This document shows positions 39,004 to 55,216 of a stretch of 64,000 nt of DNA, one piece after another (position 1 is the stretch's first letter; each line of letters starts with the position of its first letter). The position numbers were made by a program, and so were the translations under genes. This DNA is from Capnocytophaga periodontitidis (GTDB lineage Bacteria; Bacteroidota; Bacteroidia; Flavobacteriales; Flavobacteriaceae), in contig NZ_JAEFDB010000001.1 of the NCBI RefSeq assembly GCF_016126015.1, forward strand, positions 310,001 through 374,000, written 5' to 3'. The notes below the pieces were generated by a model. The model did no database searches and was not told the DNA's origin. It saw nothing but the letters and a program-made list of their open reading frames with translations.

Positions 39004-39010
39004 TTACAAT

Positions 39011-40036: not shown

Positions 40037-40067
40037 AGCCCTAAAAACATTTAATACACATTCAATT

Positions 40068-40601: not shown

Positions 40602-40614
40602 TCTGTAGTAGCTT

Positions 40615-41160
40615 TTGGAACGTATTATTTTAGGTATCGACCCTGGTACTACTATTATGGGCTTTGGACTTATTCAGGTGGAAAGAGATACTATGAAACT
40701 CTTACAACTGAATGAACTTCAACTCAGTAAATACAGCAATCACTACTTAAAACTAAGTGTGATTTTCAATCGTACTTTAGAACTGATAGACACCTATAAA
40801 CCCGATGAATTAGCTATTGAAGCACCTTTCTTTGGTAAAAATGTACAATCAATGTTGAAATTAGGACGAGCACAAGGGGTAGCAATGGCTGCAGGCTTAT
40901 CGCGCGAAATTCCTATTACTGAATACGAACCTAAAAAGGTAAAGATGGCTATTACGGGCAACGGTAGTGCTTCTAAGGAACAAGTAGCCAAAATGCTTCA
41001 ACAACTTCTAAACATAAAAGAACTTCCCAAACACTTCGATGCAACCGATGGCTTAGCAGTAGCTGTTTGTCACTTTTTAAATGGTGGTAAGGCACAAAAA
41101 CAGCAAAGCTATAGCGGTTGGGATGCTTTTGTAAAACAAAATCAAGACCGTATAGGTTAA
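40615..41160 (+). CDS. ruvC: Crossover junction endodeoxyribonuclease RuvC
   Basis: Resolves Holliday junctions with RuvAB. The 181 residues show the four acidic catalytic positions: D8 in LGIDPGTT, the glutamate in AIEAPFFG, and the pair in [14 protein letters not shown] near the C-terminus. No ATG exists between the previous stop and the conserved start, so a TTG at 40615 is the initiation codon. The hemW gene starts 14 bp after its stop. Confidence 0.95.
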
Positions 41161-41174
41161 AAAAGAACTTCATT

Positions 41175-42326
41175 TTGTATAGCTTGTACATTCATATTCC
41201 TTTTTGTAGACGTGCTTGTCATTACTGTGATTTCCATTTTTCAACTACTCTGAAAAGAAAAGAAGAAATGGTGAATGCCCTTTGTAAGGAACTCATTTTG
41301 CGCAAGGATGAAGCTATAAATAGTGAATTACAAACAGTCTACTTAGGAGGAGGGACGCCCAGTATCCTTTCGTATGACGAATTACAACAACTTTTTCATA
41401 CAATCTTCACATATTACAAGGTAAGTCCCTCAGCCGAAATTACCTTGGAAGCTAATCCTGATGACTTTTTTAGAGGCTCCTCTCCCGAACAAATGTTAGA
41501 ACAATTGCGCTCTTTAGGTATCAATAGGTTAAGTTTGGGTGTACAATCGTTTTTTGAAGAGGACTTACAATTGATGAACAGAGTACATAGTGTAGCTCAA
41601 GTAGAAACTTTATTGCAGATAACTCCACAATATTTTGATAACATCACTATTGATTTAATTTATGGTATTCCTCGAATGAGTAAGGAACGTTGGCAGGAGA
41701 ATATCAATAAGGCGCTGTCTTTTGATATTCCACATATCTCAGCCTATGCTCTTACAGTAGAAGAAAAAACAGCTTTACACAAGTTTATTGCTACGGGTAA
41801 AATCGCACCAATAAGCGATGAGCAGGCTTACACTCACTTTCAAATGTTGATAGATACTCTGGAAGCAGAGGGTTTTATACAATACGAGTTTTCAAACTTT
41901 GGCAAAGAAGGGTTTTTTAGCAGAAATAACACGGCTTATTGGTTTGGCAAGCCCTATATGGGAATAGGTCCTTCAGCCCACAGTTTTAACGGGAAAGAAC
42001 GCAGTTGGAATATTGCTCATAACATTAAGTATATACAACAAATACAGCAGGAAATATTACCTCAGGAAAAAGAAGAACTTACCCTCAACAACCGATATAA
42101 CGAACTTATTATTACACGCATACGCACGATGGTAGGAATTGATTTAGAAGAAGTAAAAACTTTTTTTGGGGAAGATTATAACCAATATTTATTACAGCAA
42201 GCACAGAAGTACCTTGCCGATGAGCTTTTAGAAATTGAAGAAAACCACCTGAAAGTAACGCGCAAGGGCAAGTTTCTTTCAGATGGTATAGCTTCCGATT
42301 TATTTAGGGTGGATGACCTCATCTAA
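41175..42326 (+). CDS. hemW: Radical SAM heme chaperone HemW
   Basis: A radical SAM protein of the HemN-like family, 383 residues. The iron-sulfur cluster motif is CRRACHYC (CxxxCxxC) close to the N-terminus, and GGGTPS for SAM binding follows. It lacks the extra N-terminal sequence of true coproporphyrinogen dehydrogenase HemN, so the heme-trafficking HemW role is preferred. The best start is a TTG at 41175, giving the usual YSLYIHIPFC head; starting further upstream would run back into ruvC. The last 27 bp overlap the convergent lipoprotein gene. Confidence 0.9.
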   Translation: MYSLYIHIPFCRRACHYCDFHFSTTLKRKEEMVNALCKELILRKDEAINSELQTVYLGGGTPSILSYDELQQLFHTIFTYYKVSPSAEITLEANPDDFFRGSSPEQMLEQLRSLGINRLSLGVQSFFEEDLQLMNRVHSVAQVETLLQITPQYFDNITIDLIYGIPRMSKERWQENINKALSFDIPHISAYALTVEEKTALHKFIATGKIAPISDEQAYTHFQMLIDTLEAEGFIQYEFSNFGKEGFFSRNNTAYWFGKPYMGIGPSAHSFNGKERSWNIAHNIKYIQQIQQEILPQEKEELTLNNRYNELIITRIRTMVGIDLEEVKTFFGEDYNQYLLQQAQKYLADELLEIEENHLKVTRKGKFLSDGIASDLFRVDDLI

Positions 42327-42764
42327 GGCTTTAAAGGTAACATTTTGGTTGCCATCAATGTGGTATTCCAAAAGCAGATCGCCCCACAATTCACCGTCGG
42401 TAAATTCACAAATCACCCATTTTTCATTGAGTATTCTTATTTTATTAAATAAGAATTTACCGTTAGACTCTGATTTGATGTAAGGGTTATGATCCTTTAC
42501 ATTCATCTCCATTAGCGCATTCATAACAATTTGCGAAGGATTGTCAATCTTTAAATCTTCAAAATATTGTTGTGCTAATTCATTAGTTTCAAGACTGAAA
42601 TTCAATGCTTCAAGGCGTTGTTCGTCAATCTTTTTGATAGAATCAGTAAGTTTTGAAATCTTTTCAGCCGATTCCTTTAATGCTGTGGCACTTTCATTGT
42701 TCGTTGAGTTACAACTTGCCAAAACAGCAGTTCCTAAGAGTGTAATAAAAAAATGTTTATTCAT
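42300..42764 (-). CDS. Lipoprotein of unknown function
   Basis: A 154-residue lipoprotein (LASC, C18) with a coiled-coil-like segment (about 28-60) and a small beta-rich C-terminal domain. The family is not recognised. Its start overlaps the stop of the upstream exonuclease gene by 8 bp, so it is probably translated with it, and its end overlaps hemW by 27 bp in the convergent orientation. Confidence 0.6.
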   Translation of the reverse strand: MNKHFFITLLGTAVLASCNSTNNESATALKESAEKISKLTDSIKKIDEQRLEALNFSLETNELAQQYFEDLKIDNPSQIVMNALMEMNVKDHNPYIKSESNGKFLFNKIRILNEKWVICEFTDGELWGDLLLEYHIDGNQNVTFKALDEVIHPK

Positions 42765-44085
42765 TATGATAAGGTTTTTGTTCGCTTAGTTTGAGTACCT
42801 TTACCTTGGAGTTCTTACGGAGATAAGAGTGTAAAAGGTGTCGGTTGAGTAAAGAATTGGCTAAAGGAGTGATAAGGGTTTCTAAAATAGAACGTTGTGT
42901 GAGTTGGTAGTTCAGATTTAAAAATCCATATCCTTTGATATTGCCATCTATTACTAAAATCATACTTTTTTCACCTACTACTCTGCCTTTATCTACAATT
43001 GCTACATCTTCATTTTGTAGCCCATATTTAGTAAAAATTCCCTTAGCTCGCTCATTGTATATGTCAGGAGATTCGTTGTTGAAATCTACTTCGTTGAGTT
43101 GAAATTCTTTTTCTATGCGTTTCAAAAAAAACAACCCTTCTTTTAGTGTTTCAAAAGTAGTGATAAAATTGTTTTGCGATTGCAATAATTCTATAAAAAA
43201 ACAGAGGTATCCTCTTTTGTTGTAATGAGAAGTAAGTATATAATTGATATTTTTTGATTTATCAATACTCCGGTTATTACATTTAGGATTGTTAAGTTGT
43301 ATAAGTTCTAATTCTTTAAGGGTTGCGATGAGTTCATTCCCCATTTCTTCATAGGTTACCTTATAAGTATGGCGTTGTAAATATCTATCGCGTTTAGAGG
43401 GAGAGGTGAGCAATTGGTTCACCCGTCCTTTGATGTTTTTATGTTTTCCTACATAGATAATTTTACCTTCTTCGTTGTGAATATAGAATACGCCTAAGGT
43501 TTCAGGGAGAGCATCAAGTATTTTTAGGTGTCGTGAAGCCATTTCTAAACGCACATCGTTTTTCACTGAAGCAGTAATGATAGTCTTTTTAGTATCTTTT
43601 TCAAGTAGATATTTGAAAAGGTTGAGAGTAGCCATAGCATCGCCCGAAGCACGATGGCGTTCACTCATTGGGATACCTAAAGAACGTACTAATTTCCCTA
43701 AGCTATACGATTCTTTATCAGGAATGAGTTGTTGTGAGAGTTCTACTGTACAGAGTGTTGTTTTGATGTACTCATATCCTAAACGGCGAAATTCTGTTTG
43801 CAAAATGCGATAATCAAAGGCGGCATTGTGCCCAACGATGATACACCCCTCTGTAATTTCCACTATACGTTTGGCTATCTCATAAAACTTTGGTGCATTG
43901 CGCAACATCTTGTTGTTGATGCCAGTAAGTTTAGTAACATAGTCTTGTATAGGGCGTTCGGGATTGATAAGAGAGATAAACTGATCGGTAATAGTATGTC
44001 CATCAAACTGATAAATAGCAATTTCAGTAATACCTTCTTCATCGTATTTACCTCCCGTAGTTTCTATGTCGAGTATTGCGTACAA
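42757..44085 (-). CDS. DnaQ-like 3'-5' exonuclease fused to a GIY-YIG nuclease domain
   Basis: A 442-residue two-nuclease protein. Residues 1-165 form a DEDDh exonuclease like DNA polymerase III epsilon: LDIETTGG (D6, E8), IVGHNAAFDYR and HRASGDAM. Residues 195-275 form a GIY-YIG domain of the UvrC type (GVFYIHNEEGKIIYVGKHKNIKGRV). The remaining C-terminal part is not recognised. Such DnaQ-UvrC-N fusions are linked to repair incision followed by trimming. A TTG start at 44085 is chosen: the next upstream in-frame codon of note is a stop and the exonuclease motif begins at once. Confidence 0.85.
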   Translation of the reverse strand: MYAILDIETTGGKYDEEGITEIAIYQFDGHTITDQFISLINPERPIQDYVTKLTGINNKMLRNAPKFYEIAKRIVEITEGCIIVGHNAAFDYRILQTEFRRLGYEYIKTTLCTVELSQQLIPDKESYSLGKLVRSLGIPMSERHRASGDAMATLNLFKYLLEKDTKKTIITASVKNDVRLEMASRHLKILDALPETLGVFYIHNEEGKIIYVGKHKNIKGRVNQLLTSPSKRDRYLQRHTYKVTYEEMGNELIATLKELELIQLNNPKCNNRSIDKSKNINYILTSHYNKRGYLCFFIELLQSQNNFITTFETLKEGLFFLKRIEKEFQLNEVDFNNESPDIYNERAKGIFTKYGLQNEDVAIVDKGRVVGEKSMILVIDGNIKGYGFLNLNYQLTQRSILETLITPLANSLLNRHLLHSYLRKNSKVKVLKLSEQKPYHNE

Positions 44086-44131
44086 ATGTTTAAGTGTTAG
44101 GGATTAGACATTTAGTCATTAGTAAATGAAA

Positions 44132-44169
44132 AAAAGCAAAGAGAAAGGTATACTTTACTCTTTGCTTTT
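44132..44169 (-). terminator. Terminator of rplS
   Basis: AAAAGCAAAGAG (44132-44143) pairs with CTCTTTGCTTTT (44158-44169). Read on the minus strand it ends in a T run, 21 bp after the rplS stop. Confidence 0.75.
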
Positions 44170-44190
44170 ATGTTGTTCATCAATTTTCTT

Positions 44191-44538
44191 TTAGCGAACT
44201 TCTTTAATACGGGCTTTTTTACCTGTAAGTCCTCTAAAGTAATAGATGCGAGCACGTCTAACTTTACCTTTTTTGTTTACTTCAATTTTTTGAAGGGCAG
44301 GCATATTGATAGGGAAGATACGTTCTACCCCTACTGTACCAGACATTTTGCGAATGGTAAATGTAGCAGTTACGCCGTGACCTTTGCGTTGTATTACAAC
44401 ACCTTTAAAAAACTGAGTACGTTTTTTGTCTCCCTCTTTGATTTCATAATACACAGTGATAGTGTCACCTGCTGAAAATTCTGGGAATTCTTTTTTCTCA
44501 ATAAAGTTGTCTTGTACGTACTTTAATAATGGTTCCAT
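44191..44538 (-). CDS. rplS: Ribosomal protein bL19
   Basis: A 115-residue large-subunit protein at the 30S-50S interface. Family motifs are FSAGDTITVYYEIKEGDKKR, RTQFFKGVVIQRKG, GVERIFPINMP and RRARIYYFRGLTGKKARIKE. It stands alone here, away from the rpsP-rimM-trmD group that accompanies it in many bacteria. Its promoter (44613-44642) is divergent from and overlaps that of mnmE. Confidence 0.98.
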   Translation of the reverse strand: MEPLLKYVQDNFIEKKEFPEFSAGDTITVYYEIKEGDKKRTQFFKGVVIQRKGHGVTATFTIRKMSGTVGVERIFPINMPALQKIEVNKKGKVRRARIYYFRGLTGKKARIKEVR

Positions 44539-44612
44539 AAAAAATATAAAATAATTATGTTATCATTGGGCAACATTCACGACTCTCGCCAGAGGTTACT
44601 CCAAATCGGGGG

Positions 44613-44642
44613 CAAAGGTACTATTTTTTTTTGAATTAGCAA
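44613..44642 (-). promoter_or_regulatory. Promoter of rplS
   Basis: On the minus strand, TTG (44640-44642), 19 bp, TACCTTTG (44613-44620). This leaves a leader of about 70 nt. Confidence 0.7.
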
Positions 44643-44659
44643 GTTTTTTCGTAATTTTG
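44631..44659 (+). promoter_or_regulatory. Promoter of mnmE
   Basis: TTG (44631-44633), 18 bp, TAATTTTG (44652-44659), interlocked with the divergent rplS promoter. The leader before mnmE would be about 92 nt. Confidence 0.6.
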
Positions 44660-44756
44660 TCGCCTCACTAATACGTAATTATGACTTTTAATAAACTTTT
44701 TTATTGCTTTTAGGATATAAAATTTGTTTAAAGAGTTATAACAAATATCACTTACT

Positions 44757-46172
44757 ATGAATAAGAAAAATACAATATATACCAGCGATACTATTGTTGC
44801 TTTAGCAACTGCTTCGGGAATGGGTGCCATTGCTGTTATCCGATTATCAGGCGCAAATGCTATAGAAATTGCAGACCAAATATTCAAGAGCTACAGCAAA
44901 AAACCTTTAATCAACGCTCCCTCCCACACAGTACATTTAGGAACTTTAGAAGCTAAAAACCAAGTAATTGATGAGTGTCTGGCTACTATTTTTAAAGGTA
45001 CGAAATCATATACAGGAGAACCTGTAGTAGAGTTTTCTTGTCACGGAAGTAATTATATTGTAGAAGAAGTTATTAAATTGTGTTTAGCCAATGGTGCTCG
45101 TTTGGCTGAAGCTGGAGAATTCACTAAACGTGCCTTCTTAAATGGCAAATTAGCACTTAATCAAGCTGAAGCAGTAGCTGACCTGATTGCCTCTGATAGT
45201 AAAGCCTCTCATCAAGTAGCCTTGCAACAAATGCGTGGAGGTTTTACTTCTGAAATAGAAGCATTACGACAAGAATTACTCAATTTTGCCTCACTAATAG
45301 AACTTGAGTTAGATTTTTCGGAAGAAGATGTAGAATTTGCTGATAGAAGTCAGTTTAAAAACCTTTTAAAAACTATTAAAACTACGTTATCATCACTTAT
45401 CCAATCGTTTTCAGTAGGAAATGTTTTGAAAAATGGTATTCCTGTGGCGATTGTAGGAAAACCCAATGCTGGCAAATCAACCTTGCTCAATGCTTTACTA
45501 AATGAAGAGCGTGCTATTGTATCGGATATTGCAGGCACAACTCGTGATACGATTGAAGAAACCTTGCATATAGGAGGTATTGCTTTTCGTTTTATTGATA
45601 CTGCAGGTATTCGTGACACACAAGATCAAATAGAAGCAATAGGGGTACAAAAAGCCAAAGAAAAAATAGAAAAAGCCTCAGTGATATTATTTCTATTTGA
45701 TGACAAAGATAATACAGTGAGTGAAATTACTACTTTTGTAAAGGAAAACTACCGAGAGGGTACTAAATATGTTTTACTACACAACAAAACAGACTTATCA
45801 TCAGAAGAAACAACTGCTTTTGATGATGAGATTCTACAATCTCTCAAAGGCTATACTAATACTTTATTAAGAATTTCAGCTAAAGAAGGACAAAACATTA
45901 CTGAGTTAAAAAGATTTCTCGCTGATTATGCCCAAACGCTTAGTCATATTGGCAAAGCAACTGTAGTAACAAATATCCGTCATTACGAAGCTCTTTCTAA
46001 CGCGTTACAAGCTATTGAAAAAGTAGAAGAAGGAATGCAAATGCATTTATCGGGTGACTTATTAGCTATTGATATACGCGAAACACTCTATCATTTGGGC
46101 AGTATCACTGGAGAAGTAAGTAATGATGAGGTTTTAGGAAACATATTTTCCCGCTTCTGTATCGGAAAGTAG
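44757..46172 (+). CDS. mnmE: tRNA modification GTPase MnmE
   Basis: With MnmG it installs the carboxymethylaminomethyl group on U34 of tRNAs. The 471 residues comprise an N-terminal folate-binding domain (DTIVALATASGMGAIAVIRLSG), a helical domain and an inserted G domain: G1 GKPNAGKST near 232-240, G3 DTAGI, G4 NKTD. The C-terminal catalytic CIGK motif is complete. The final 18 bp, TTC TGT ATC GGA AAG TAG, are repeated with synonymous changes at 52617-52634. This marks the gene end as an attachment site, so the C-terminal codons were probably supplied by an inserted element. Confidence 0.97.
   Translation: MNKKNTIYTSDTIVALATASGMGAIAVIRLSGANAIEIADQIFKSYSKKPLINAPSHTVHLGTLEAKNQVIDECLATIFKGTKSYTGEPVVEFSCHGSNYIVEEVIKLCLANGARLAEAGEFTKRAFLNGKLALNQAEAVADLIASDSKASHQVALQQMRGGFTSEIEALRQELLNFASLIELELDFSEEDVEFADRSQFKNLLKTIKTTLSSLIQSFSVGNVLKNGIPVAIVGKPNAGKSTLLNALLNEERAIVSDIAGTTRDTIEETLHIGGIAFRFIDTAGIRDTQDQIEAIGVQKAKEKIEKASVILFLFDDKDNTVSEITTFVKENYREGTKYVLLHNKTDLSSEETTAFDDEILQSLKGYTNTLLRISAKEGQNITELKRFLADYAQTLSHIGKATVVTNIRHYEALSNALQAIEKVEEGMQMHLSGDLLAIDIRETLYHLGSITGEVSNDEVLGNIFSRFCIGK
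46155..46172 (+). repeat. attL-like direct repeat at the mnmE 3' end
   Basis: TTCTGTATCGGAAAGTAG encodes FCIGK and stop. It matches the copy at 52617-52634 in 15 of 18 positions without gaps, and the first 11 bases are identical. Confidence 0.75.
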
Positions 46173-46265
46173 ATCCTAAAAATAAGAAAAAAGAGGTCTT
46201 TAGTTTTCTTTATTAGATGAGCGAACCTTCAGCAAAGGATTAAAAAAATACAACTATTAAAAATT

Positions 46266-46295
46266 TTGTAATATCACAAAATAATACTACTTTTG
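46266..46295 (+). promoter_or_regulatory. Promoter ahead of the structured RNA and lipoprotein operon
   Basis: TTG (46266-46268), 19 bp, TACTTTTG (46288-46295). Transcription from about 46301 would pass through the structured region at 46391-46528 before the first ORF at 46591. Confidence 0.6.
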
Positions 46296-46390
46296 TCCCA
46301 TCATTTTAAAAGAAAAGAATATAGAACAGAAAAATTATTTTTTAACATAAAGACATATTAGCGTTTAGCTTTTATTTTGTGCTTCTTAAA

Positions 46391-46528
46391 ATCGCCAATT
46401 TTATAGTACCCTACAAAATAATAAGTAGAAACGCTCACGCTTCGGCGTGGGCTGTACTTATTAGGGTACGGGTGTTTGGCGATACCTGAGAACAAATAAG
46501 ATTAAGTTATACAGTCCCACGCTTTTTT
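46391..46528 (+). ncRNA. Structured RNA with rod-like fold and competing terminator
   Basis: In the 418-bp gap after mnmE the RNA folds into a rod of four helices: ATCGCCAA/TTGGCGAT (46391-46398, 46476-46483), GTACCCTA/TAGGGTAC (46406-46413, 46462-46469), ATAAGTA/TACTTAT (46421-46427, 46455-46461) and GCTCACGC/GCGTGGGC (46433-46440, 46445-46452) closed by a UUCG loop. The strand GCGTGGGCTGT (46445-46455) can instead pair with ACAGTCCCACGC (46511-46522, one bulged T), which is followed by six T. The rod and the terminator are mutually exclusive. This is attenuator or riboswitch logic before the lipoprotein operon, or a free small RNA such as a 6S-like or Flavo-1-type RNA. I cannot assign a family. 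Confidence 0.55.
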
Positions 46529-46590
46529 ATTTTATATTACTAACCGCTTTTAGGGGCTGAAAAGCATTCAAAAACTATCTTTTTTAGCTT

Positions 46591-47733
46591 ATGAAAGCAT
46601 TAAAAATCTTCTTGACTTTGTTCTGTATGGGAGTCATTGTGAGCTGTTCTAAAGATGAACCTGCTCCAGCTCCAGCAAAAGAACAACCTACACCTCAACA
46701 AACTAATTTTCCTACAGTTAAAAACTTTTCTGCACAAGAGGTTACTGTAGGAGATATTATTACCATTGAAGGAGAGAATTTTGTTCCTTCACAGACCTAC
46801 ACAATTACTTTTAATGGAGCAAAAGGGACTATCAAAGAAGTTACCTCCAACCATCTAAAAGTAGAAATTCCTGAAGAGGCTACATCAGGAGAAGTTATTC
46901 TATCTTCCAATGAAACTTCTAAGAGTATAGGTCGCCTAACTATTCTTCCTAAACCAAGTGTTTTGTATGCTTATGTAGCCTATAGTAAAATTGTAAAATT
47001 AGACCTTCAAACAGGTAAAGAATTAGAAACCATTGTTGAAATAGGTAAGGAATACTTAGGAAGAGGTATTTACTACTTAAAGAGTACTAATGAAATTGTA
47101 GGCATACAATCAGGAAATTCAGGACATTATTTATTCAAACTTAATGTAACTACAAAAGAGATTGTAAGGTTACCTTGTAATCTTTATGAGAAGCTCATAA
47201 TAGCTAATAATGAGCCGTATGCTTATGATTTGCGCAATCACAAAATTGTAAAATTAGACCTTCAAACAGGTAAAGAGATAGAAACTATTGCTGAGGTAGG
47301 GAATGATTATTTAAGTCATATTCGCTTCTCTAAAAGTACCAATGAGATTATTGGAGAACAAATAAAATATAACGAAAAAATGTTTAAGAATGACTATTCT
47401 TTTTTCAGACTTAATTTGACAACAAAACAGATTGTAAAAGCACCCTCTAATGGATATGAAAGACTTGTAATAGCTAATGATGAGTTGTATGCTTATGATT
47501 TGCGTAATCGTAAAATCGTAAAGTTAGACCTATCAACAGGTAAAGAATTAGAGACTATCGTAGAAACAGGACAGGACTATTTAAGCTATATACAATACTC
47601 TAAAAGCACGAACGAAATTATTGGACTACAATCAGGCACAGAAAAAAGTCTATTCAAACTCAACTTGAAAACCAAGCAAATAATAAGAACTCCTACTAAA
47701 AACTATGAGAACCTTATAATAGCAAATTATTAA
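46591..47733 (+). CDS. IPT/TIG-domain lipoprotein with three long internal repeats
   Basis: A 380-residue lipoprotein (IVSC, C19) with a Pro/Ala-rich linker (PAPAPAKEQPTPQQ), an IPT/TIG immunoglobulin-like domain at about 40-125 (GDIITIEGENFVP) and three repeats of about 85-90 residues. Each repeat starts near KIVKLDLQTGKE and includes LYEKLIIANNEPYAYDLRN or its variant, as in a partial beta-propeller. Repeats 1 and 2 share an identical 35-bp DNA segment. It is the first gene after the structured RNA and lies 20 bp before the next gene. A surface binding role is inferred only from architecture. Confidence 0.72.
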   Translation: MKALKIFLTLFCMGVIVSCSKDEPAPAPAKEQPTPQQTNFPTVKNFSAQEVTVGDIITIEGENFVPSQTYTITFNGAKGTIKEVTSNHLKVEIPEEATSGEVILSSNETSKSIGRLTILPKPSVLYAYVAYSKIVKLDLQTGKELETIVEIGKEYLGRGIYYLKSTNEIVGIQSGNSGHYLFKLNVTTKEIVRLPCNLYEKLIIANNEPYAYDLRNHKIVKLDLQTGKEIETIAEVGNDYLSHIRFSKSTNEIIGEQIKYNEKMFKNDYSFFRLNLTTKQIVKAPSNGYERLVIANDELYAYDLRNRKIVKLDLSTGKELETIVETGQDYLSYIQYSKSTNEIIGLQSGTEKSLFKLNLKTKQIIRTPTKNYENLIIANY

Positions 47734-47753
47734 TCTTAAAAACAATTGATTTT

Positions 47754-48506
47754 ATGAAAGTAGCAAAATATATTTTAGGAATATTATTCATAATAACAGG
47801 TTTAGGTGTTATTACTCAAAAAAGCATTATAACAGGAATTGCTTTTGTAATTCTTGGGGTTGTTCTTTTACCCACAGTTTCTGATAAACTCAAGGAAAAT
47901 GTGAGTTTTTGGCAAAACAAAATAGTTAGGTATGTTTCTTATATTGTACTATTTACAATAGCAGGAGCTACTGTCCCTAAATCTGCTGAAACATCTTCTT
48001 CAAAAGAAGAAAACAAACCTAAAATTGTCATTAAGACAGAAGAAAATACAACAGAGCAAGAACCAGCAACTGCTCAAAAAGAAGAACCTTTAATAAAATA
48101 TGAAATTCAAGAGGACTTGACTACTGTTATTCGTTATGACAAAGCTCCTTCTTACTTCGTTTTGATAGACAAAGTCAATCTGAAAAATGATAGCTTTGTG
48201 AATGAAATAGAAAGAGTTATAAATAAGATTGTTTCAGAAAAAGGAGGGAAAATCAATATTGATTTTTTTGACGATAAAAAAGCATTAGAGCTTTATTACA
48301 ATAGTAATTATGGAATAAATATAGGAAAGTTGTTAAATAAGTCAGAAAATAACTTATTAGCTCAACATAGTATAGCATCTTTTTCAGGAGAAAATAGTGC
48401 AGATATGCATTATAATACGTTGTATATCTTTCCTTCTGCCTCTAAAGACAATCCTAATGTAGGAAAGTATGTTAAAACAAAAGAGTTCAATCCTAATGTA
48501 AAATAA
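47754..48506 (+). CDS. Membrane protein of unknown function
   Basis: A 250-residue protein with two or three N-terminal transmembrane helices (about 5-22, 25-42 and 60-78), an acidic Lys/Glu-rich linker (EENKPKIVIKTEENTTEQEP) and a C-terminal alpha/beta domain of about 130 residues. The latter contains VIRYDKAPSYFVLIDK and INIDFFDDKKALELYY. The family is not recognised. One base separates its stop from the start of the DUF4236-TPR gene, so these two are co-translated in the island operon. Confidence 0.6.
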   Translation: MKVAKYILGILFIITGLGVITQKSIITGIAFVILGVVLLPTVSDKLKENVSFWQNKIVRYVSYIVLFTIAGATVPKSAETSSSKEENKPKIVIKTEENTTEQEPATAQKEEPLIKYEIQEDLTTVIRYDKAPSYFVLIDKVNLKNDSFVNEIERVINKIVSEKGGKINIDFFDDKKALELYYNSNYGINIGKLLNKSENNLLAQHSIASFSGENSADMHYNTLYIFPSASKDNPNVGKYVKTKEFNPNVK

Positions 48507-48507
48507 T

Positions 48508-49572
48508 ATGGGTTTTCGTTTTCGTAGAAGTCAATCATTTGGAGCTTTCAGACTCAATTTTAGTACATCAGGAGTTGGAATGAGTGTTGGAGCTGGTGGT
48601 TTCAGATTGGGACTAAGTAGCAATGGACAGCTATATAACACTGTCAATATTCCTAATACGGGGCTTACTTATCACTCTAACCTATTAAGAAGCAGAAACA
48701 CACCGCAACCGTCAAACTCCTATCAACAAGGAATAAACCTATTAGGTTTTTCTATTGATGAAAACAAGTATGGTAATAGCGATGGTTGTTTAACCTTCCT
48801 CCTTTGGTTTATTGCTATTTGTTTAATTCCTTTTGGAATAGGAGTGATAATGATTTTCTTCTTAGTTAGAAGGTCTCGTTCTCCTAAGAAGGTTGTGAAA
48901 ACTCATCTTGAAGCGGCTATTTCTAATTTTTATAGTGGAGATTTTGAAGGAGCTGTTGCTACATTAGATACAGCTCTATATAAAGTACCTTTAAGTCCCT
49001 ATGAATCTGATATAGTAGATTTGAAAGGAGTTTGTTTGTATTACTTAGGACGGTATGCAGAGTCAAGTGATTGCTTTGGTAAGGCTTTGAGGTTAAATCC
49101 AAGTTCTGAAAGGCTAAAGCTCCTTTACGTAGAAACGCTTATTCTGAAGGATGATAAGGCTGATTGTCCTAAAATCATTGAGCTATACGAAGATTTGCTT
49201 TCTCGCAAATATGATGAAAGACAAGTACTATTGACAGGGAATTGTTACTACCTTTGTGAGAACTATGATAAGGCAATTTCGTACTTTCAGAAGATACCTA
49301 AAAACAGTGATTTATTCCTAAAAGCATTGCAAGGAATAGCCAATAGTTTTATAGGTAAGAATCAAATAGATTTAGCTATAGAAACCCTCAAAAAAGCACC
49401 TTTGCGCACTTCTAATCCTGATGATGATTTGATAGACATTATGTTTCTATTAGGCAATCTCTATGAAGAAAAAGGAGAGAAGGAGCAGGCAAGGCTACTC
49501 TATCAAAAAGTCTATACACACAGTATAGAGTATGAGGATGTAGCACAACGGTTACAGGAATTAGATACTTAA
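48508..49572 (+). CDS. DUF4236 plus TPR protein
   Basis: A 354-residue protein. The first 60 residues match DUF4236 (MGFRFRRSQSFGAFRLNFS, SGVGMSVGAGGFRLGL), a short glycine-rich domain of unknown function. A transmembrane segment (about 95-118, FLLWFIAICLIPFGIGVIM) follows. Then comes a TPR array from about 130 to 340 (FYSGDFEGAVATLDTAL, YYLGRYAESSDCFGKALRLN). It ends the lipoprotein operon and is followed by a terminator and a new promoter, so the downstream ATPase-HNH pair is expressed separately. Confidence 0.72.
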   Translation: MGFRFRRSQSFGAFRLNFSTSGVGMSVGAGGFRLGLSSNGQLYNTVNIPNTGLTYHSNLLRSRNTPQPSNSYQQGINLLGFSIDENKYGNSDGCLTFLLWFIAICLIPFGIGVIMIFFLVRRSRSPKKVVKTHLEAAISNFYSGDFEGAVATLDTALYKVPLSPYESDIVDLKGVCLYYLGRYAESSDCFGKALRLNPSSERLKLLYVETLILKDDKADCPKIIELYEDLLSRKYDERQVLLTGNCYYLCENYDKAISYFQKIPKNSDLFLKALQGIANSFIGKNQIDLAIETLKKAPLRTSNPDDDLIDIMFLLGNLYEEKGEKEQARLLYQKVYTHSIEYEDVAQRLQELDT

Positions 49573-49580
49573 AACAAAAG

Positions 49581-49598
49581 GCAAGCTGAAAGGCTTGC
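49581..49598 (+). terminator. Terminator between the DUF4236-TPR gene and the defence pair
   Basis: GCAAGC (49581-49586) pairs with GCTTGC (49593-49598), extended by flanking A and T runs, and is followed by six or more T. Its 3' arm contains the TTG of the next promoter. Confidence 0.7.
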
Positions 49599-49625
49599 TT
49601 TTTTATTGAATAAAAGCTACCTTTG
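49595..49625 (+). promoter_or_regulatory. Promoter of the ATPase-HNH module
   Basis: TTG (49595-49597) inside the terminator stem, 20 bp, TACCTTTG (49618-49625). Initiation near 49631 leaves a leader of about 20 nt. Confidence 0.65.
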
Positions 49626-49651
49626 CCGAAATTTTTCAGTCCTAAATTAAT

Positions 49652-51583
49652 ATGCCTCAAGAATTTATACTTCCTTACGAAATAAAGAAAAGATTATTTG
49701 ATGAGATTTTGAAATTGGAAAACCCTTTCAATCTAAGTGAAAATATTACTTTACCTGATTTTCTTTCAAAAATTTTGCCTTTGAGAGATATGCCTTCAGA
49801 GGATAGTAGGTATAATAATGCCTATGATGATGCCCATCAACATCTTGTAAGAAATAATGATTGGAGTTTGGAAGAAACCTTTGAGAGAAGATTTAAAATT
49901 ATTGAAAATAATGAGACTTTTAAAAAGCTTTTAGAAGCTATTCTGAATAATAGTGAAGAGGGTAATATTGAAGCTAAAAAATCACTATTCAATAAATATC
50001 TAAATGAATATCAATATCGTATAAATCAAAGATATAATGCTTCTTCTAAATTAGAATATTTTATTGTTAGAATAGAAGATGATTATATTCCAAGTGATTT
50101 CCCTGAAAATGACATTCCTTTTTTTGTAATAGATAAGTATAATACAAGTTTTATTCCCAAACATTACCCTTGTGTGATTTTGCAAGAGAAAGATTGGAAT
50201 GACTGGTATACATATCGCACAAGTTTTGACCTTATTTATGTTGAAAGTCAATTAAATATAAAATTTATAGGTCATATAAAAATTTTAAATATTAATAACC
50301 CAATAACATTTGATGTAATAGATAAAGAGTTTTATAAATTAGATGGTAATTATTGTAGCCTTATACAAGATGAGGTTACTTATTTTTCTTTAAAACACGT
50401 CCTTAATGATAAACTGTATTCCTTTTTATCAGCACTTAATGATATTGCCTGTTTTCCTTCTATTTGTGAAAGATTTGAAAAAGAAAAAGGATTTAAAAAT
50501 TCCCTTTGTAGAGACACAAATAAGACTGAAGAGATTATTAGAACGATAAGACATAAATTAAAATATGGAAAAAATATAAAGGATTTTTTCAATTTTGAGC
50601 TTCTTTTTAAACCTCCTTATTCTGAATCAAAAGTAAGTTTTAAGTTTAATTTTGACATTGAAAAAATTATTCCACAAAGGCTTTATTGTTTAATTGGAAA
50701 AAATGGAGTTGGAAAGACTTCTTTTCTCAAAGATTTGATACAAAAATTATCAAATAAGGATTTTGAAAATGTACTTCCTGTTCCTCTTTTTGGAAAAATA
50801 ATAGTTGTTTCATATAGTAATTTAGATTCCTTTGAGAGATTAAAAAGCAAACCTGATTTCAATTTTATCTTTTGTGGTTTAGTAAATCTCCAAACAAAAA
50901 CACCTCTTACAGACAGCGAACTTTTAAGTAAAATTAGCGAATCTATAACTAAAATTGAAGAGCGGAATAGTCTTAATAAATATGCTACAGTTTGCAGGCA
51001 ATTTATTGATAAAGGTTTATTTAATGAATTATTTAATGAAACAATTTCTTATGATTATGAATTTAAGGAAAAAAGTATTCCTCTTATCAATAAAATGAGT
51101 TCAGGGCAAAAGTCCCTATTTTTAATCATAACAGAAATAATAGCTAATATTAGATATAGTTCCTTTATTCTCTTTGATGAACCTGAAACTCATCTACACC
51201 CTAACGCTATAACAGAATTTATGAACACAATAATGGGCTTATTGCAAGAGTTTAATTCTTTTGGTTTAGTAGCAACACATTCACCTTTAATAGTTAGAGA
51301 GATATTTTCTGAAAATATTTTTGTCTTAGATAAGGAAGAAACAACTTTAAGAGTACGAAAATTAGAATTTGAAACCTTTGGAGAAAACTTAACTACTATC
51401 ACCAACGAAATTTTTGGTAATAGAGATGTTCCTAAATATTATAAAACAAAAATAGAAGAACTTGTAGAGTCAGGAAAGACATATAAGGAGATTGAAAATG
51501 AGCTGCAAGGTGAAGTTCCTTTAAATCTAAACATAAAAATTCTAATTAAAAGTCTAATACAAAATAGAAATGAAAAATCTTAA
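49652..51583 (+). CDS. AAA ATPase with AbiJ-NTD3-like N-terminus (Septu PtuA-like)
   Basis: A 643-residue putative anti-phage ATPase. Residues about 25-125 resemble the AbiJ N-terminal domain type 3: a Leu-rich start, LPLRDMPSEDSRYNNAYDDA and HQHLVRNNDW. A linker follows, then an ABC/SMC-like ATPase with Walker A GKNGVGKT (about 349-356), signature MSSGQKSL (about 482) and Walker B ILFDEPETHLHP (about 505-516), then the H-loop region VATHSPLIV. This ATPase class is PtuA/RloC/OLD-like. It has its own promoter and is very AT-rich. The HNH gene overlaps its 3' end by 14 bp. The N-terminal assignment is from memory of the family pattern and is less sure than the ATPase call. Confidence 0.78.
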   Translation: MPQEFILPYEIKKRLFDEILKLENPFNLSENITLPDFLSKILPLRDMPSEDSRYNNAYDDAHQHLVRNNDWSLEETFERRFKIIENNETFKKLLEAILNNSEEGNIEAKKSLFNKYLNEYQYRINQRYNASSKLEYFIVRIEDDYIPSDFPENDIPFFVIDKYNTSFIPKHYPCVILQEKDWNDWYTYRTSFDLIYVESQLNIKFIGHIKILNINNPITFDVIDKEFYKLDGNYCSLIQDEVTYFSLKHVLNDKLYSFLSALNDIACFPSICERFEKEKGFKNSLCRDTNKTEEIIRTIRHKLKYGKNIKDFFNFELLFKPPYSESKVSFKFNFDIEKIIPQRLYCLIGKNGVGKTSFLKDLIQKLSNKDFENVLPVPLFGKIIVVSYSNLDSFERLKSKPDFNFIFCGLVNLQTKTPLTDSELLSKISESITKIEERNSLNKYATVCRQFIDKGLFNELFNETISYDYEFKEKSIPLINKMSSGQKSLFLIITEIIANIRYSSFILFDEPETHLHPNAITEFMNTIMGLLQEFNSFGLVATHSPLIVREIFSENIFVLDKEETTLRVRKLEFETFGENLTTITNEIFGNRDVPKYYKTKIEELVESGKTYKEIENELQGEVPLNLNIKILIKSLIQNRNEKS

Positions 51584-52418
51584 ACCTTATAATGAAGATT
51601 GTTTTGAAGTATTTAAAGAAGCTGTAAAAAGCAAGCGTAAAAATAAAGATATTTTATTGAATATTGAAGATAATATTGAGTCTCAATTTAATATTTATTC
51701 AGGAAAATTTAGAGATAAAAAACTATATGAGATAACCTCATTAGAAGACCTATCAATAACTGAAAAGGATAGTTTAATTGATTTGTATCAGTATAAGGCT
51801 GCAATTATTCAAAAAATCAAGGGAGAAATTTTGGGTAATCAGATTAGAACAATAACTAATACTTGTCAATATTGTACTTTAAATTCAGTCAATACATTAG
51901 ACCATTTCCTACCAAAAGAAAAATTTCCTGACTTTTCAGTAAATCCATTAAATTTATTTCCTTGCTGTTCAGAGTGTAATAGTAAGAAAGGTAGTTTATG
52001 GCTTGATAGTAATAATAATCATCATTTGTTTTTAAATTTATATCTTGATGAACTACCTAACAAAAGGTATTTAATGGCTGATTTTGATTTTCAAGACGAT
52101 ATACCAATAGTTACCTTTTGTTTGGGGAATCCTGAAAATATTGATAGTAGGACTTATGAAATTATAAAGAGTCATTTTAGTAGATTAGACTTATTAAAAA
52201 GGATGAGAGAGAGGTCTAATGAGGAAATAACCAATATTATAAATACAATAAAAGGGGATTATAGATTAAATTCAGATATAAGCAGTATAAAAAGTACTAT
52301 TACAGAAACAGAAAATGAAAATAAAAAAGCTTATGGTTATAACTATTGGAAGTCTGTATTAAAGCTATCTATAATAGAAAAAGATGAGTTTTGGGATAAG
52401 TTTATAATAGCTCCTTAA
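51570..52418 (+). CDS. HNH endonuclease (Septu PtuB-like)
   Basis: A 282-residue nuclease of the HNH/zinc-finger type. Cysteine pairs C99-C102 (CQYC) and C133-C136 (CSEC) hold the zinc, and between them lies the catalytic LDHFLPKEKFPDFSVNPLNL with D111-H112. N137 completes the HNH set. The N-terminal 90 and C-terminal 100 residues are helical and not recognised. PtuB/TIGR02646-type HNH proteins are paired with an ATPase in just this order, and the 14-bp overlap with the ATPase gene supports a complex. The DNA is as AT-rich as that of the ATPase gene. Confidence 0.8.
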   Translation: MKNLKPYNEDCFEVFKEAVKSKRKNKDILLNIEDNIESQFNIYSGKFRDKKLYEITSLEDLSITEKDSLIDLYQYKAAIIQKIKGEILGNQIRTITNTCQYCTLNSVNTLDHFLPKEKFPDFSVNPLNLFPCCSECNSKKGSLWLDSNNNHHLFLNLYLDELPNKRYLMADFDFQDDIPIVTFCLGNPENIDSRTYEIIKSHFSRLDLLKRMRERSNEEITNIINTIKGDYRLNSDISSIKSTITETENENKKAYGYNYWKSVLKLSIIEKDEFWDKFIIAP

Positions 52419-52429
52419 TAGAAATAATC

Positions 52430-52460
52430 TTGTTAAATCACAAAAAAATACGTACCTTTG
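52430..52460 (+). promoter_or_regulatory. Orphan promoter at the right end of the island
   Basis: TTG (52430-52432), 20 bp, TACCTTTG (52453-52460), but no plus-strand ORF follows. AAAAATAC (about 52470-52477) and GTATTTTT (52500-52507) could form a terminator for a very short RNA. It may have driven a gene now lost, such as a recombinase. Confidence 0.45.
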
Positions 52461-52616
52461 TGCAAAGAAAAATACCTCTTTTAAGAACTCAAAAACAAAG
52501 TATTTTTAACCTTATTTGACCTTGATTTCTTTATTTTTGTTGCGTTTTTACATTTTTTCGCTTCAAGAAATGACATAATTAATTAATAAACAGATATTTA
52601 GTATACTTACTTCATA

Positions 52617-52634
52617 TTCTGTATCGGGAAATAA
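52617..52634 (+). repeat. attR-like direct repeat, displaced mnmE 3' end
   Basis: TTCTGTATCGGGAAATAA reads FCIGK and stop, as does the mnmE end. It differs from 46155-46172 only by A-G changes at repeat positions 12, 15 and 18, all synonymous. It belongs to no ORF here. Confidence 0.75.
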
Positions 52635-52641
52635 AAAATAA

Positions 52642-52677
52642 AAACTTTGCCAAAGGACAGAATCCTTGGCAAAGTTT
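52642..52677 (-). terminator. Hairpin after etfA (family copy 5)
   Basis: AAACTTTGCCAAAGG (52642-52656) pairs with CCTTGGCAAAGTTT (52664-52677) with one bulged base. It lies 20 bp after the etfA stop and 8 bp beyond the attR-like repeat. Confidence 0.7.
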
Positions 52678-52696
52678 ATAATGTTTGGATTATTTG

Positions 52697-53647
52697 TTAT
52701 TGTCTTGCTTTAAGTTTTTCAATGAGTTTAGGAACTACCTCAAAAGCATCACCTACAACACCATAATCGGCAGCTTTGAAAAAAGGTGCTTCAGGATCAG
52801 AATTGATAACTAATTTCACTTTAGAGGCATTTACGCCTGCCAAGTGCTGTATAGCTCCTGAAATACCTATAGCTATATAGAGATTAGGCGCTACAGGTTT
52901 ACCCGTTTGTCCTACGTGTTCAGAATGAGGTCGCCATCCCATATCAGCAACAGGTTTAGAACAAGCGGTTGCTGCACCTAATACTTCAGCAAGTCCTTCC
53001 ACTATCTGCCAATTCTCGGCAGCTTTCAACCCTCTTCCTCCTGAAACCACTATAGTAGCATCGTCTAACGACACTTTACCCGAGGTTTTCTCTGTAGTGA
53101 TTACTTGTATCCCCCAATCACTATCAGGAGGTGTAGGAGCAAAAGGTTCTACTGTAAGTTCAACATTTTTTTCTTCTGTTTTAAAAGCATTAGGAGCTAA
53201 TCCTAATACTTTTATAGGTGTGTTGATTTGACTAAGACTAATAGCTTTATTTGAGAACACATTACTTTTCACAATAAAATCTTCTGTAGGTAAAGAAATG
53301 ATATTAGATACATACCCCGCTTGCAAGCTATTAGCTAATAAAGGAGCTACTTCTTTAGCTTGTGATGAAGCACTAAATACTACTATTGTACTATTTTCTT
53401 TTGCTACTGCTTGTTGCAATAAATGATTGAGTGCATTGGCAGAAATATGTTGTAGTTGGTCATTGGTAATGCTAAGCACTTTATTTACCCCATAAGCGGC
53501 TAATACTTCAGGTTGAGGTACATTTATAGTTACAGCTACTACTTTTGTTTGTTGTTTATCGGCAATTGCACGAGCATAGGTAGCTACTTCAAAAGCGCTT
53601 TTTTTCACTTTTCCGTTTTCGGAATCTATATATATGAGTACTGACAT
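52697..53647 (-). CDS. etfA: Electron transfer flavoprotein subunit alpha
   Basis: The FAD-carrying subunit of ETF, which takes electrons from acyl-CoA and related dehydrogenases. The 316-residue protein has the C-terminal FAD domain with VVSGGRGLKAAENW, GWRPHSEHVGQTGKPVAPNL, YIAIGISGAIQHLAG and VINSDPEAPFF. It lies 6 bp downstream of etfB on the same strand, so the two form an operon. Confidence 0.97.
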   Translation of the reverse strand: MSVLIYIDSENGKVKKSAFEVATYARAIADKQQTKVVAVTINVPQPEVLAAYGVNKVLSITNDQLQHISANALNHLLQQAVAKENSTIVVFSASSQAKEVAPLLANSLQAGYVSNIISLPTEDFIVKSNVFSNKAISLSQINTPIKVLGLAPNAFKTEEKNVELTVEPFAPTPPDSDWGIQVITTEKTSGKVSLDDATIVVSGGRGLKAAENWQIVEGLAEVLGAATACSKPVADMGWRPHSEHVGQTGKPVAPNLYIAIGISGAIQHLAGVNASKVKLVINSDPEAPFFKAADYGVVGDAFEVVPKLIEKLKARQ

Positions 53648-53653
53648 TTTTTA

Positions 53654-54400
53654 TTAAATTACTTTTGCTTCGTTGTGTAATAAATCAATAAGGGTATCTA
53701 AATCATCGGCAGATACCATTTTCACAGGTTGTTTTGCAGGAAGTTTCTCAAATCCTACTGTTGTTACTCTAACATCAGTAGGCTCAGCAGGCAATACCGT
53801 GATTGCTCTAGTACGCGCTGCCATTAGGTTACGCATATTGGGAATGCGGAGGTCTTTCTCTTGAGTAAGACCTTTTTGCCCTGCAATTACCAAAGGAAGC
53901 ACAGCTGATAGCTTTTCTCTACCACCATCTATTTCTCGTTGGGCAGTTACCTTAGCACCTTCTATTTCTAAACCTATACATTTGTTTATAAAAGGAAGAT
54001 TTAAAAGCGAAGCTAAATAACCTCCTACCATTCCTCCATTATAGTCGATAGATTCCTTACCTGTGATGATAAGGTCGTAATTACCTTCTTTAGCAACTTT
54101 AGCAAGCTGATTAGCTACAAAAAAAGCATCAGTAGGAGCGGCATCTATACGAATGATATCGTCGGCTCCTATAGCTGAAGCTTTTCTTAGTACTGGTTCT
54201 GTTTCTTGTGTTCCTACATTCACAAGAGTAACACTTGCCCCTAATTGTTCTTTAAGCATAATAGCTTTAGTGAGGCAAAACTCATCATTAGGATTGATAA
54301 TAAACTGTACCCCTGAAGGGTTAAACTGTTTGTTATCTTCCGTAAAGTTTATTTTAGAAGTAGTGTCGGGAACACTACTGATACATACTAATATCTTCAT
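53654..54400 (-). CDS. etfB: Electron transfer flavoprotein subunit beta
   Basis: The partner of EtfA, carrying AMP. The 248-residue length is typical. It begins with MKILVCISSVPDTTSKINF and shows the family segment near 60 (TLVNVGTQETEPVLRKASA) and the GKESIDYNGGMVGGYLASLL loop near 115-134. The promoter is only near consensus (TACTTTTA at 54454-54461, minus strand, with TTG at 54482-54484, 20 bp away). Confidence 0.97.
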   Translation of the reverse strand: MKILVCISSVPDTTSKINFTEDNKQFNPSGVQFIINPNDEFCLTKAIMLKEQLGASVTLVNVGTQETEPVLRKASAIGADDIIRIDAAPTDAFFVANQLAKVAKEGNYDLIITGKESIDYNGGMVGGYLASLLNLPFINKCIGLEIEGAKVTAQREIDGGREKLSAVLPLVIAGQKGLTQEKDLRIPNMRNLMAARTRAITVLPAEPTDVRVTTVGFEKLPAKQPVKMVSADDLDTLIDLLHNEAKVI

Positions 54401-54503
54401 AATCTTATAGATAATAGGATTAAATTGAACTTAATGTTTTAATTTTAAAGGCGTAAAAGTACTATGTTTTTACTAACTACACAAATTATTATACAAAAAA
54501 TCG

Positions 54504-54511
54504 TAATTTTG
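54504..54511 (+). promoter_or_regulatory. -7 element of the methyltransferase gene
   Basis: TAATTTTG, 45 bp before the ATG at 54557. The leader contains a 12-bp tandem repeat (AAATACTATAAG twice, about 54528-54551). Confidence 0.5.
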
Positions 54512-54556
54512 CCGTTCTAATTAATTGAAATACTATAAGAAATACTATAAGAAATA

Positions 54557-55216
54557 ATGACTCCTCCCATTACTGATATGCGCCTATTAGGACAACTATT
54601 TCGTCATCCTGAAGGAGACTACGCCAAAGAAGTAGGTGATTTTATTTTTGCTTCCAATAGTAGTATGATAAACTGTACTATTGATTGTTTGGCACTGCAA
54701 CCTCATCAAAAAGTTTTAGAAATAGGTTTTGGCAATGGCAAACATCTCCCATATTTATTTAACAAGGAAAGTTCCCTACAATATATAGGAGTAGAAACTT
54801 CTTCCGCAATGATAACTGAAGCAACTGAGTACAACAACGCTTTGCTTAGCCAACAAAAAGTACATTTTTTAGAAGTAGTTGCTGATAAACTCCCTAATTT
54901 CGATTATTTTTTTGATGTATGTTTTTCGGTAAATACCCTTTATTTTTTAGAAAACCCATTATATTATTACAAAAAGATTCACACTTTACTCAGCTCACAA
55001 GGTAAAGTAGCTATTGGTTTTATAGATAAAAGTACAGGAGAGAAGGCGCCTTTTGCGCGTGAAGGTTTTCAGTTTTATACCGCTGAAGAAGTAGCTGAAA
55101 TACTTAAAGCAGCTGGTTTTGAACAAATAACAAAATTACCTTTTGAAGAAACTCTTGTTTCAGCAAAAGGCAAAAGTATCCAACGAAAGTATTGGGTTGT
55201 GATAGGAACTTGCTAA
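54557..55216 (+). CDS. Class I SAM-dependent methyltransferase
   Basis: A 219-residue methyltransferase with the SAM-binding motif I VLEIGFGNGKHLPYL near 54-68, motif II with YIGVETSS, and a VCFSVNTLYFL motif IV region near 115. The substrate is unknown; small-molecule methyltransferases of this size are common. It has its own promoter, and the patatin gene that follows has its own too, so it is likely monocistronic. Confidence 0.82.
   Translation: MTPPITDMRLLGQLFRHPEGDYAKEVGDFIFASNSSMINCTIDCLALQPHQKVLEIGFGNGKHLPYLFNKESSLQYIGVETSSAMITEATEYNNALLSQQKVHFLEVVADKLPNFDYFFDVCFSVNTLYFLENPLYYYKKIHTLLSSQGKVAIGFIDKSTGEKAPFAREGFQFYTAEEVAEILKAAGFEQITKLPFEETLVSAKGKSIQRKYWVVIGTC

Follow-up and report, generated by a model that had tools for sequence, protein, structure and literature searches.

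In a 64,000-nucleotide stretch of the Capnocytophaga periodontitidis genome (contig NZ_JAEFDB010000001.1, positions 310,001–374,000; hereafter the window), a low-G+C island (0.293, versus 0.356 outside it) lies between two copies of the 3′ end of mnmE, and we consider it probable, at roughly 85%, that a site-specific mobile element targeting the last bases of that gene integrated here and that the interval is what remains of it. The target gene, mnmE (44757–46172, plus strand, 471 aa), ends in the left attachment (att) core, the element-borne mnmE tail TTCTGTATCGGAAAGTAG at 46155–46172, and the right core, the displaced native tail TTCTGTATCGGGAAATAA, is found at 52617–52634, also on the plus strand. 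The two cores are alike at 15 of 18 bases, the first 11 being identical, and the three differences (GGA/GGG, AAG/AAA and TAG/TAA) are all synonymous, with FCIGK-stop encoded in both copies. The right core falls inside no gene and is followed by a hairpin (52641–52677), which is probably a terminator common to mnmE and etfA, and by the convergent etfA gene (52697–53647, minus strand), which forms the right flank.

A search of the window for TTCTGTATCGGAAAGTAG at up to three mismatches returned two matches, both of them the cores, compared with a mean of 0.10 over 100 shuffles, none of which contained two. Across all 55 contigs of the draft genome (3.23 Mb), the degenerate pattern TTYTGYATHGGNAARTRR likewise occurs only at the two core sites. 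A chance origin of the repeat is ruled out by these shuffles together with the genome-wide pattern search. A first-pass annotation of this DNA had reported the positions of the repeats, their degree of identity and the synonymous nature of their changes, had placed the right copy outside any gene and ahead of the hairpin and the convergent etfA, and had regarded a chance match as very unlikely; re-reading of the sequence, the shuffles and the lack of a third site in the genome bear out this description.

Comparison with 20 genomes of the genus, among which the window genome is designated G000, identified an unoccupied site in the closest relative of the set (G018; mnmE protein 97.9% identical). 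This genome carries a single FCIGK copy, whose letters are those of the right core of the window, and approximately 80 bp separate its mnmE tail from the end of the convergent etfA gene, with the corresponding hairpin (same arms, different loop) directly 3′ of mnmE. Positions 3–8724 of the G018 locus (L160) align with window positions 37470–46168 at 96.0%, and positions 8766–11305 align with 52656–55206 at 95.2%; therefore, both flanks of the island are continuous in G018. Besides the 6.46 kb insert, the G018/window junction shows small changes in or near the hairpin (89% identity over 202 bp), and the letters beside the two window cores differ on both sides. Because the single tail of G018 equals the right core, the right core represents the native mnmE tail and the left core came with the element. 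Judged by the letters that the cores share, the crossover is located within TTCTGTATCGG, and the tail CGGAAAGTAG that now completes mnmE is, on the same comparison, one supplied by the element. On reading, the two arms of an inverted repeat (TTTCCCG-9 nt-CGGGAAA) are visible in the unoccupied core, about the region of the crossover, and may serve as an integrase binding site. The first-pass annotation had assigned one repeat to the element, had described the intervening genes as accessory and had suggested that a related genome might show one mnmE tail followed by the etfA hairpin; G018 is such a genome, and all five genes of the interval are absent from this site. Relatives that keep two FCIGK copies without the intervening genes, or an interval conserved throughout, would have spoken against that proposal, and G018 has one copy and no interval. 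To the right of the etf genes, positions 11333–19901 of L160 correspond to window positions 26218–17378 running in the inverted direction, which marks a rearrangement between the two chromosomes.

A full-length sibling of the island was identified in a more distant member of the genus (G013; mnmE 76% identical), which holds a 16.6 kb element at the mnmE 3′ end (locus L163) between a left core at 674–691 and a right core at 17266–17283. The left core is followed by an integrase gene (int, 862–1989; Phage_integrase, SAM_5 and Arm5 domains), a 255-aa open reading frame (ORF), a gene for an AlpA-like helix-turn-helix (HTH) protein (HTH_17/AlpA), ORFs of 292 and 124 aa, and terL (4485–5804; Terminase_3). 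Beyond terL, the element carries genes for a TIG lipoprotein, a 250-aa protein (p250) and a DUF4236-TPR protein, and then further cargo consisting of an AAA and HNH pair, whose HNH assignment rests on weak matches, another AAA protein, a SIR2 protein and a 246-aa ORF. Window positions 46195–49636 are 94.5% identical to L163 positions 5796–9252, starting from the last 9 bp of terL, and window positions 52397–52637 are 83% identical to the right end of L163, right core included; the defence genes between the two matching blocks differ. These blocks indicate that the window unit corresponds to the sibling minus the int-to-terL region, with another defence pair in a variable slot. At four-fold degenerate sites, the window and G013 are identical at 123 of 131 positions in the TIG gene and 82 of 87 in p250, as against 57 of 148 in mnmE, and this excess indicates that the module moved between species long after the split of the hosts. 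Between the two copies, Ka/Ks-type ratios are 0.43 for the TIG gene, 0.16 for p250 and 0.07 over codons 1–99 of the TPR gene; such values are consistent with purifying selection, which would be weakest on the TIG gene. The sibling DUF4236-TPR gene is split by an in-frame stop at codon 100 (L163 8421–8423), and the window copy is open.

The gene content of the sibling resembles that of a phage satellite. The L163 genes scanned include none for a capsid, portal or tail protein, and none of the ten scanned with Pfam matched a relaxase. The putative replication gene (rep) matched no family and had no match in the phage collection, and the ORF at the position of terS gave a weak match only, to a phage family of unknown function. 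Distant relatives of terL occur in 363 phage records, those listed being 24–29% identical; scans of IMG/VR yielded no relative of terL or of the TIG lipoprotein, and a scan with the sibling integrase yielded four integrases only, at 28–35% identity. In another genome of the set (G010), a TerL protein 31% identical to that of L163 is encoded within what appears by eye to be a phage-like gene cluster (L183). Relatives of the putative rep were detected in 28 of 397 genomes of the family, and 16 of the 17 such loci examined (L224–L240) have an integrase relative nearby; three of the 17 are at mnmE, and type I restriction-like genes were noted by eye in five. A search for internal att remnants inside the sibling returned matches at 4–5 mismatches only.

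Next to the left core, the window island begins with 22 bp (46173–46194) for which the rest of the window and loci L160–L178 offer matches at 4–5 mismatches only. These are followed by the deletion scar (46195–46203, plus strand), which consists of the final nine bases, including the stop, of a terL homologue (GGTCTTTAG), and at which the homology with G013 starts. The right end of the element (52397–52616), within the 83% block, overlaps the end of the HNH gene. A local hidden Markov model search for tyrosine recombinases had no match at E ≤ 1, either in the interval flanked by the repeats or elsewhere in the 64 kb window, none of the PF00589 matches of the genome falls in the window, and no close relative of the sibling integrase was detected elsewhere in the window genome, the best-scoring match having 34% identity. 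Relative to the sibling, the window unit is without the ~5.1 kb (the int-to-terL region) that would allow self-movement. The first-pass annotation had also seen no integrase between the repeats and had considered a remnant or a cargo unit, and both points are upheld, the former by the model search and the distribution of PF00589 matches and the latter by the sibling comparison. Its third option, a satellite moved in trans, is a possibility that gains nothing from the 34% best-scoring match and from a left end shorter than that of the sibling.

The mnmE 3′ end was then surveyed in 80 best mnmE loci from other genomes, nearly all of them Flavobacteriaceae. A relative of the G013 integrase is encoded within 2.5 kb downstream of mnmE, on the same strand, at 31 of the 80 loci and upstream of mnmE at none; at 7 of the 80, the downstream sequence available is shorter than 2.5 kb. 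On a tree of 47 integrases (36 beside mnmE and 11 from elements elsewhere, three further off-site loci having been dropped for lack of a usable match), location at mnmE requires 2 changes, as compared with a shuffled mean of 10.1; three off-site members from the genus lie inside the mnmE group, indicating that specificity changed at least once. Second FCIGK tails were sought in 50 of the 80 genomes, and a downstream tail on the same contig and strand was found in 3 of 31 integrase-bearing genomes (G027 at 31, 68 and 120 kb, G032 at 8.9 kb and G033 at 60.8 kb) and in 2 of 19 integrase-free genomes, both Maribacter (G063 at 12.0 kb and G059 at 23.8 kb). The two Maribacter intervals contain no tyrosine recombinase; they carry type I restriction-like genes, recognized by eye, and are alike, by reading, in the 70 bp before their right cores. 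The G059 interval also contains many genes of metabolic type, and the extent of this island is unsure. Within the genus, 3 of 20 genomes (G000, G002 and G013) have another tail on the strand of mnmE, no more than 20 kb downstream of the gene. In G002 (locus L173), two tails are each followed by sequence that is 95% alike over 214 bp, and the first tail has an N-terminal integrase fragment after it; inspection of the sequence also shows the start of a second fragment after the inner core. Stripped islands and accretion recur at the mnmE site. Two arrangements were additionally noted: an IS3-like insertion adjoins the integrase fragment in L173, where opposed hsdS-like genes flank an invertase-like recombinase (by eye), and four mnmE tails stand in series over 120 kb in the Winogradskyella genome G027 (G027:C5:120579-241042), possibly as an accretion array. 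Searches of the open-licence full-text literature, judged on titles and abstracts, found no report of an mnmE island in Bacteroidota.

The cargo of these loci was compared with PADLOC in the first 16 integrase-bearing and first 16 integrase-free loci, taken in locus order and having at least 9.9 kb downstream; the comparison is small, several integrase-bearing loci are near-copies of one another, hits are listed by family rather than by locus, and it does not amount to a clean enrichment test. Among the matches listed for the 95 ORFs of the integrase-bearing loci (25 of 127 families), there were nine DUF6617 proteins, nine primases of the DUF3987/PriCT-2 type, four prokaryotic Argonaute proteins (pAgo) and four type IIG enzymes. 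Among those listed for the 95 ORFs of the integrase-free loci (25 of 71 families), the matches were mainly to type I restriction families, with two members each, which fits the presence in that set of the two stripped Maribacter intervals.

These observations lead us to propose that the parent of the window island was a phage-satellite-like element whose tyrosine integrase would recombine the mnmE core. Such an element would excise and integrate by means of its own integrase, replicate and be packaged like a satellite; a deletion would then have removed int to terL, leaving a unit that resembles a cis-mobilizable element (CIME). Movement of the unit would require another element to integrate into or beside one of its att sites and to bring with it an integrase of the mnmE clade. 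Its cargo might be the reason why the host retains it, and would comprise a Septu-like ATPase and HNH pair in an exchangeable defence slot, together with an operon of lipoprotein, membrane and TPR genes preceded by a conserved leader RNA with a defined structure. Given the lack of a close integrase relative in the genome and a left end cut to 22 bp, the unit is probably stranded. It is well supported that the island is an integrative remnant with a satellite-like parent, at a known kind of site and in a phylum for which no report was found in our searches.

An alternative that retains some plausibility, but which we regard as improbable, is that the island is a live non-autonomous element that arrived without an integrase and moves in trans by the mnmE integrase of another element, a cargo-only satellite that would itself depend on the satellite. 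The retention of both cores and of ~220 bp of the right end would suit such an element, as would the integrase-free Maribacter intervals with shared sequence before their right tails and the existence of tandem arrangements at the site; against it stand the lack, in the window genome, of an integrase close to that of the sibling, the shortened left end and the finding of the integrase-less unit in one place only, with the TIG gene present in 3 of 20 genus genomes, in the third at only 31% identity. It is very unlikely that the repeats are not att sites at all, with a right tail that stems from gene conversion or from duplication of part of mnmE and a cargo that entered by ordinary recombination. 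Duplicated gene ends do occur and the repeat is short, but the comparison with G018 and G013 contradicts this reading: the tail at the empty site is the right copy letter for letter, the letters flanking the two copies differ, G013 presents a matching arrangement together with an integrase, and a second same-strand tail recurs in three genomes of the genus. Membership of the family of Salmonella genomic island 1 (SGI1), as an integrative mobilizable element (IME) in Bacteroidota, deserves almost no credence, since the target site, the mnmE/trmE 3′ end, is common to both (PMC8409611) but no SGI1-type mobilization gene was found by Pfam in the island or the sibling, which encodes a terminase.

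Several points weigh against the interpretation of the island as a remnant of a satellite-like element. Any excision, circle formation or transfer of the unit would be hypothetical, and the putative satellite nature of the parent is read from gene layout. The 22 bp left end is unlike that of G013 and has no closer counterpart than the matches at 4–5 mismatches, so that either deletion in situ or arrival in an already integrase-less state may have produced it. Exact second tails are so few in the surveyed genomes that most of the neighbouring elements are undelimited. The comparison draws on one empty-site relative and one full-length sibling among the 20 genus genomes, and etfA lies beside mnmE in G000 and G018 only, so that the direction of change rests on G018 and the sibling.

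The window island and its sibling each resemble previously described systems in part. According to the first-pass annotation, SGI1-type islands integrate at the last 18 bp of mnmE/thdF. That annotation had inferred an island of the SGI1 type; the site-specific island at the mnmE 3′ end stands, and the kinship with SGI1 is not supported by the gene layout. Integration at the 3′ end of mnmE (trmE, thdF) and the logic of a preserved tail are the only features that the window island shares with SGI1, which is gammaproteobacterial, is mobilized by IncA/C plasmids with mpsAB/oriT and has the layout xis / mpsAB / oriT / tra (PMC8409611). The layout of the sibling is instead int / AlpA-like HTH / putative rep / terminase, and the SGI1 core genes (xis, mpsAB, tra and sga) are absent by Pfam gene content, no direct comparison with SGI1 proteins having been run; membership was rejected on the gene content of island and sibling.

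CIMEs are att-flanked units that contain cargo only, lack an integrase and derive by deletion from an autonomous element (PMC7563491), and integrase-less islands at ssrA have been described in Dehalococcoides (PMC3146451). The window island is similar in that its att cores flank cargo genes at an accretion site: both cores are retained, with a right end that is 83% identical to that of the sibling and a left end cut short, and the five cargo genes include no integrase, conjugation or mobilization gene. Tandem tails occur in G002 and G027, and mobilization in cis by accretion, as in CIMEs, would be a candidate property. However, the CIMEs in the literature originate from elements that are conjugative or mobilizable, whereas the parent here would be a terminase-bearing, satellite-like element, one end is cut short, and any mobilization of the island would be hypothetical. 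Since an origin from an integrative and conjugative element (ICE) or an IME was not found, the sibling having a terminase and no relaxase match, the island is CIME-like only. Phage-inducible chromosomal islands (PICIs) have int, an AlpA-type regulator and a replication gene, lack structural and lytic genes and measure ~15 kb (PMC6092414). The 16.6 kb sibling is similar in having int at the left, an AlpA-like regulator, a putative rep and an ORF at the terS position, but differs in also carrying terL, in being flavobacterial and in that no known functional family could be assigned to its rep or to its terS-position ORF. A helper phage, and the phage-dependent induction and packaging of PICIs, would be hypothetical for the sibling.

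All five cargo genes of the window island lie on the plus strand. The first three encode a 380-aa lipoprotein-like protein with a TIG domain (46591–47733; 90% identical in G013, lipoprotein signal recognized by eye), p250, which has a hydrophobic N-terminus and no family (47754–48506; 97% identical in G013 and 37% in another mnmE element, L232), and a DUF4236 and TPR protein (48508–49572; 96% identical in G013). They are followed by an ATPase with AbiJ_NTD3 and AAA (AAA_21, AAA_15) domains (49652–51583) and an HNH endonuclease-like partner with an HNH domain at the cut-off score (51570–52418), whose genes overlap by 14 bp. The best PADLOC models for these adjacent genes are PDC-M01A for the ATPase (E = 2.2e-108) and PDC-M01B for the HNH protein (E = 5.4e-74), which makes the pair a candidate PDC-M01 system, both of its genes lying side by side. 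Their translations contain a Walker-type motif, GKNGVGKT, and an HNH motif, CxxC...DH...CxxCN. The order of an AAA_21/AAA_15 ATPase and an overlapping HNH gene recalls Septu, and the ATPase is also recognized by a PtuA model of PADLOC (E = 6e-62); the pair differs from Septu in its N-terminal AbiJ_NTD3 domain, in its best models being those of PDC-M01 and in its NCBIfam PtuA score, which at 41.7 bits falls far short of the cut-off of 500, and the HNH protein had no match to NCBIfam PtuB. Among solved structures, one weak match was found for the ATPase, to an ABC transporter (E = 0.0006), and none for the HNH protein. The pair is likely to function in anti-phage defence.

A structured RNA is predicted between the terL scar and the TIG gene (46358–46559, plus strand), with a core at 46358–46520 and a pseudoknot partner, GGGGCTG, at 46553–46559; upstream of it, inspection of the sequence identified a promoter-like element, TTTTG ... 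TACTTTTG (46264–46295, plus strand), which is conserved in G013 and which we take to be a promoter motif of the Bacteroidota type. The predicted fold (-65.5 kcal/mol, versus -48.1 for shuffles) has a z-score of -3.8, and the window and G013 copies differ by paired changes. A model built from these two sequences detected the RNA in 37 of the 397 family genomes and in the mnmE element L232, where it directly precedes a p250 homologue. Twenty-six of the 43 matches (the 21 best-scoring and five hand-picked) were aligned with MAFFT, leaving out 17 mostly lower-scoring rows. Across 27 pairs in five helices, 93.2% of cells are paired and 15 pairs show double changes; the covariation score of 0.443 exceeds those of shuffled (0.201) and slid (0.06–0.11) alignments, a result favoured both by the use of the main hairpin in the model that selected the matches and by the reading of the structure from the same alignment. 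Helices 1 and 4 contain no double change, and five of six pairs in helix 5, the pseudoknot, whose 3′ side lies outside the search model, do contain them. U-G pairs are frequent in helix 4 (17 of 26 rows at one pair and 13 of 26 at another), a pattern more in keeping with an RNA of this strand than with a hairpin at the DNA level.

The position of the RNA relative to genes was counted on 44 members (the 43 matches and one from IMG/VR), taking the first ORF of at least 60 aa, and was thereby recounted on all members, the five hand-picked rows having been chosen partly for a nearby ORF. This ORF begins 43–67 nt past the conserved 3′ end in 24 members, closer in 6 and farther in 2, with none within 120 nt in 12, and random positions in the same loci have an ORF at 43–67 nt in 173 of 4000 cases. 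Members without an ORF at this distance are mostly low-scoring, and several lie, by eye, farther upstream of long SusC-like genes; low-scoring members were also often seen by eye upstream of SusC-like or sigma-factor-like genes. The ORFs that follow the RNA are largely unrelated to each other, and among ten that were scanned, six had no Pfam match, three were below the cut-off and one was a subtilase. Rfam 15 (4227 models) gave no match at the window RNA up to E = 1 and none to the RNA in six relatives up to E = 0.1, and a pattern search of IMG/VR returned 14 stretches, one of which scored as this RNA. A U run resembling a terminator precedes the pseudoknot partner, an arrangement suggestive of attenuation of transcription, and the RNA is a possible leader of the cargo module. 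The better-scoring members keep an almost constant distance of 43–67 nt to accessory genes that are largely unrelated and mostly of secreted or membrane type. We see roughly even odds that this ~200-nt class outside Rfam 15, with its long covarying hairpin, terminator-like 3′ end and pseudoknot downstream, is a portable cis-regulatory leader, placed by mobile elements before interchangeable, mostly secreted or membrane-type cargo genes, with mnmE islands as one vehicle. Matches to the c-di-GMP-I and ctRNA families in the window were below gathering scores, lie elsewhere and were rejected. The window also contains, outside the island, an L19-Flavobacteria ribosomal protein leader (RF03130, 42.9 bits, 44571–44598, minus strand) before what appears by eye to be an L19-like gene.

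With its strong covariation, its lack of an Rfam model and its attachment to accessory genes without an assigned function, the RNA constitutes an independent lead. With an empty site, a full element and a stripped element aligned in one genus, the decay of a satellite into stranded defence cargo becomes testable. The mnmE 3′ end, the target of SGI1 in Gammaproteobacteria, is a busy integration site in Flavobacteriaceae as well, where it is used by one group of integrases; the cargo of their elements includes restriction systems, pAgo, SIR2 and ATPase-HNH genes.

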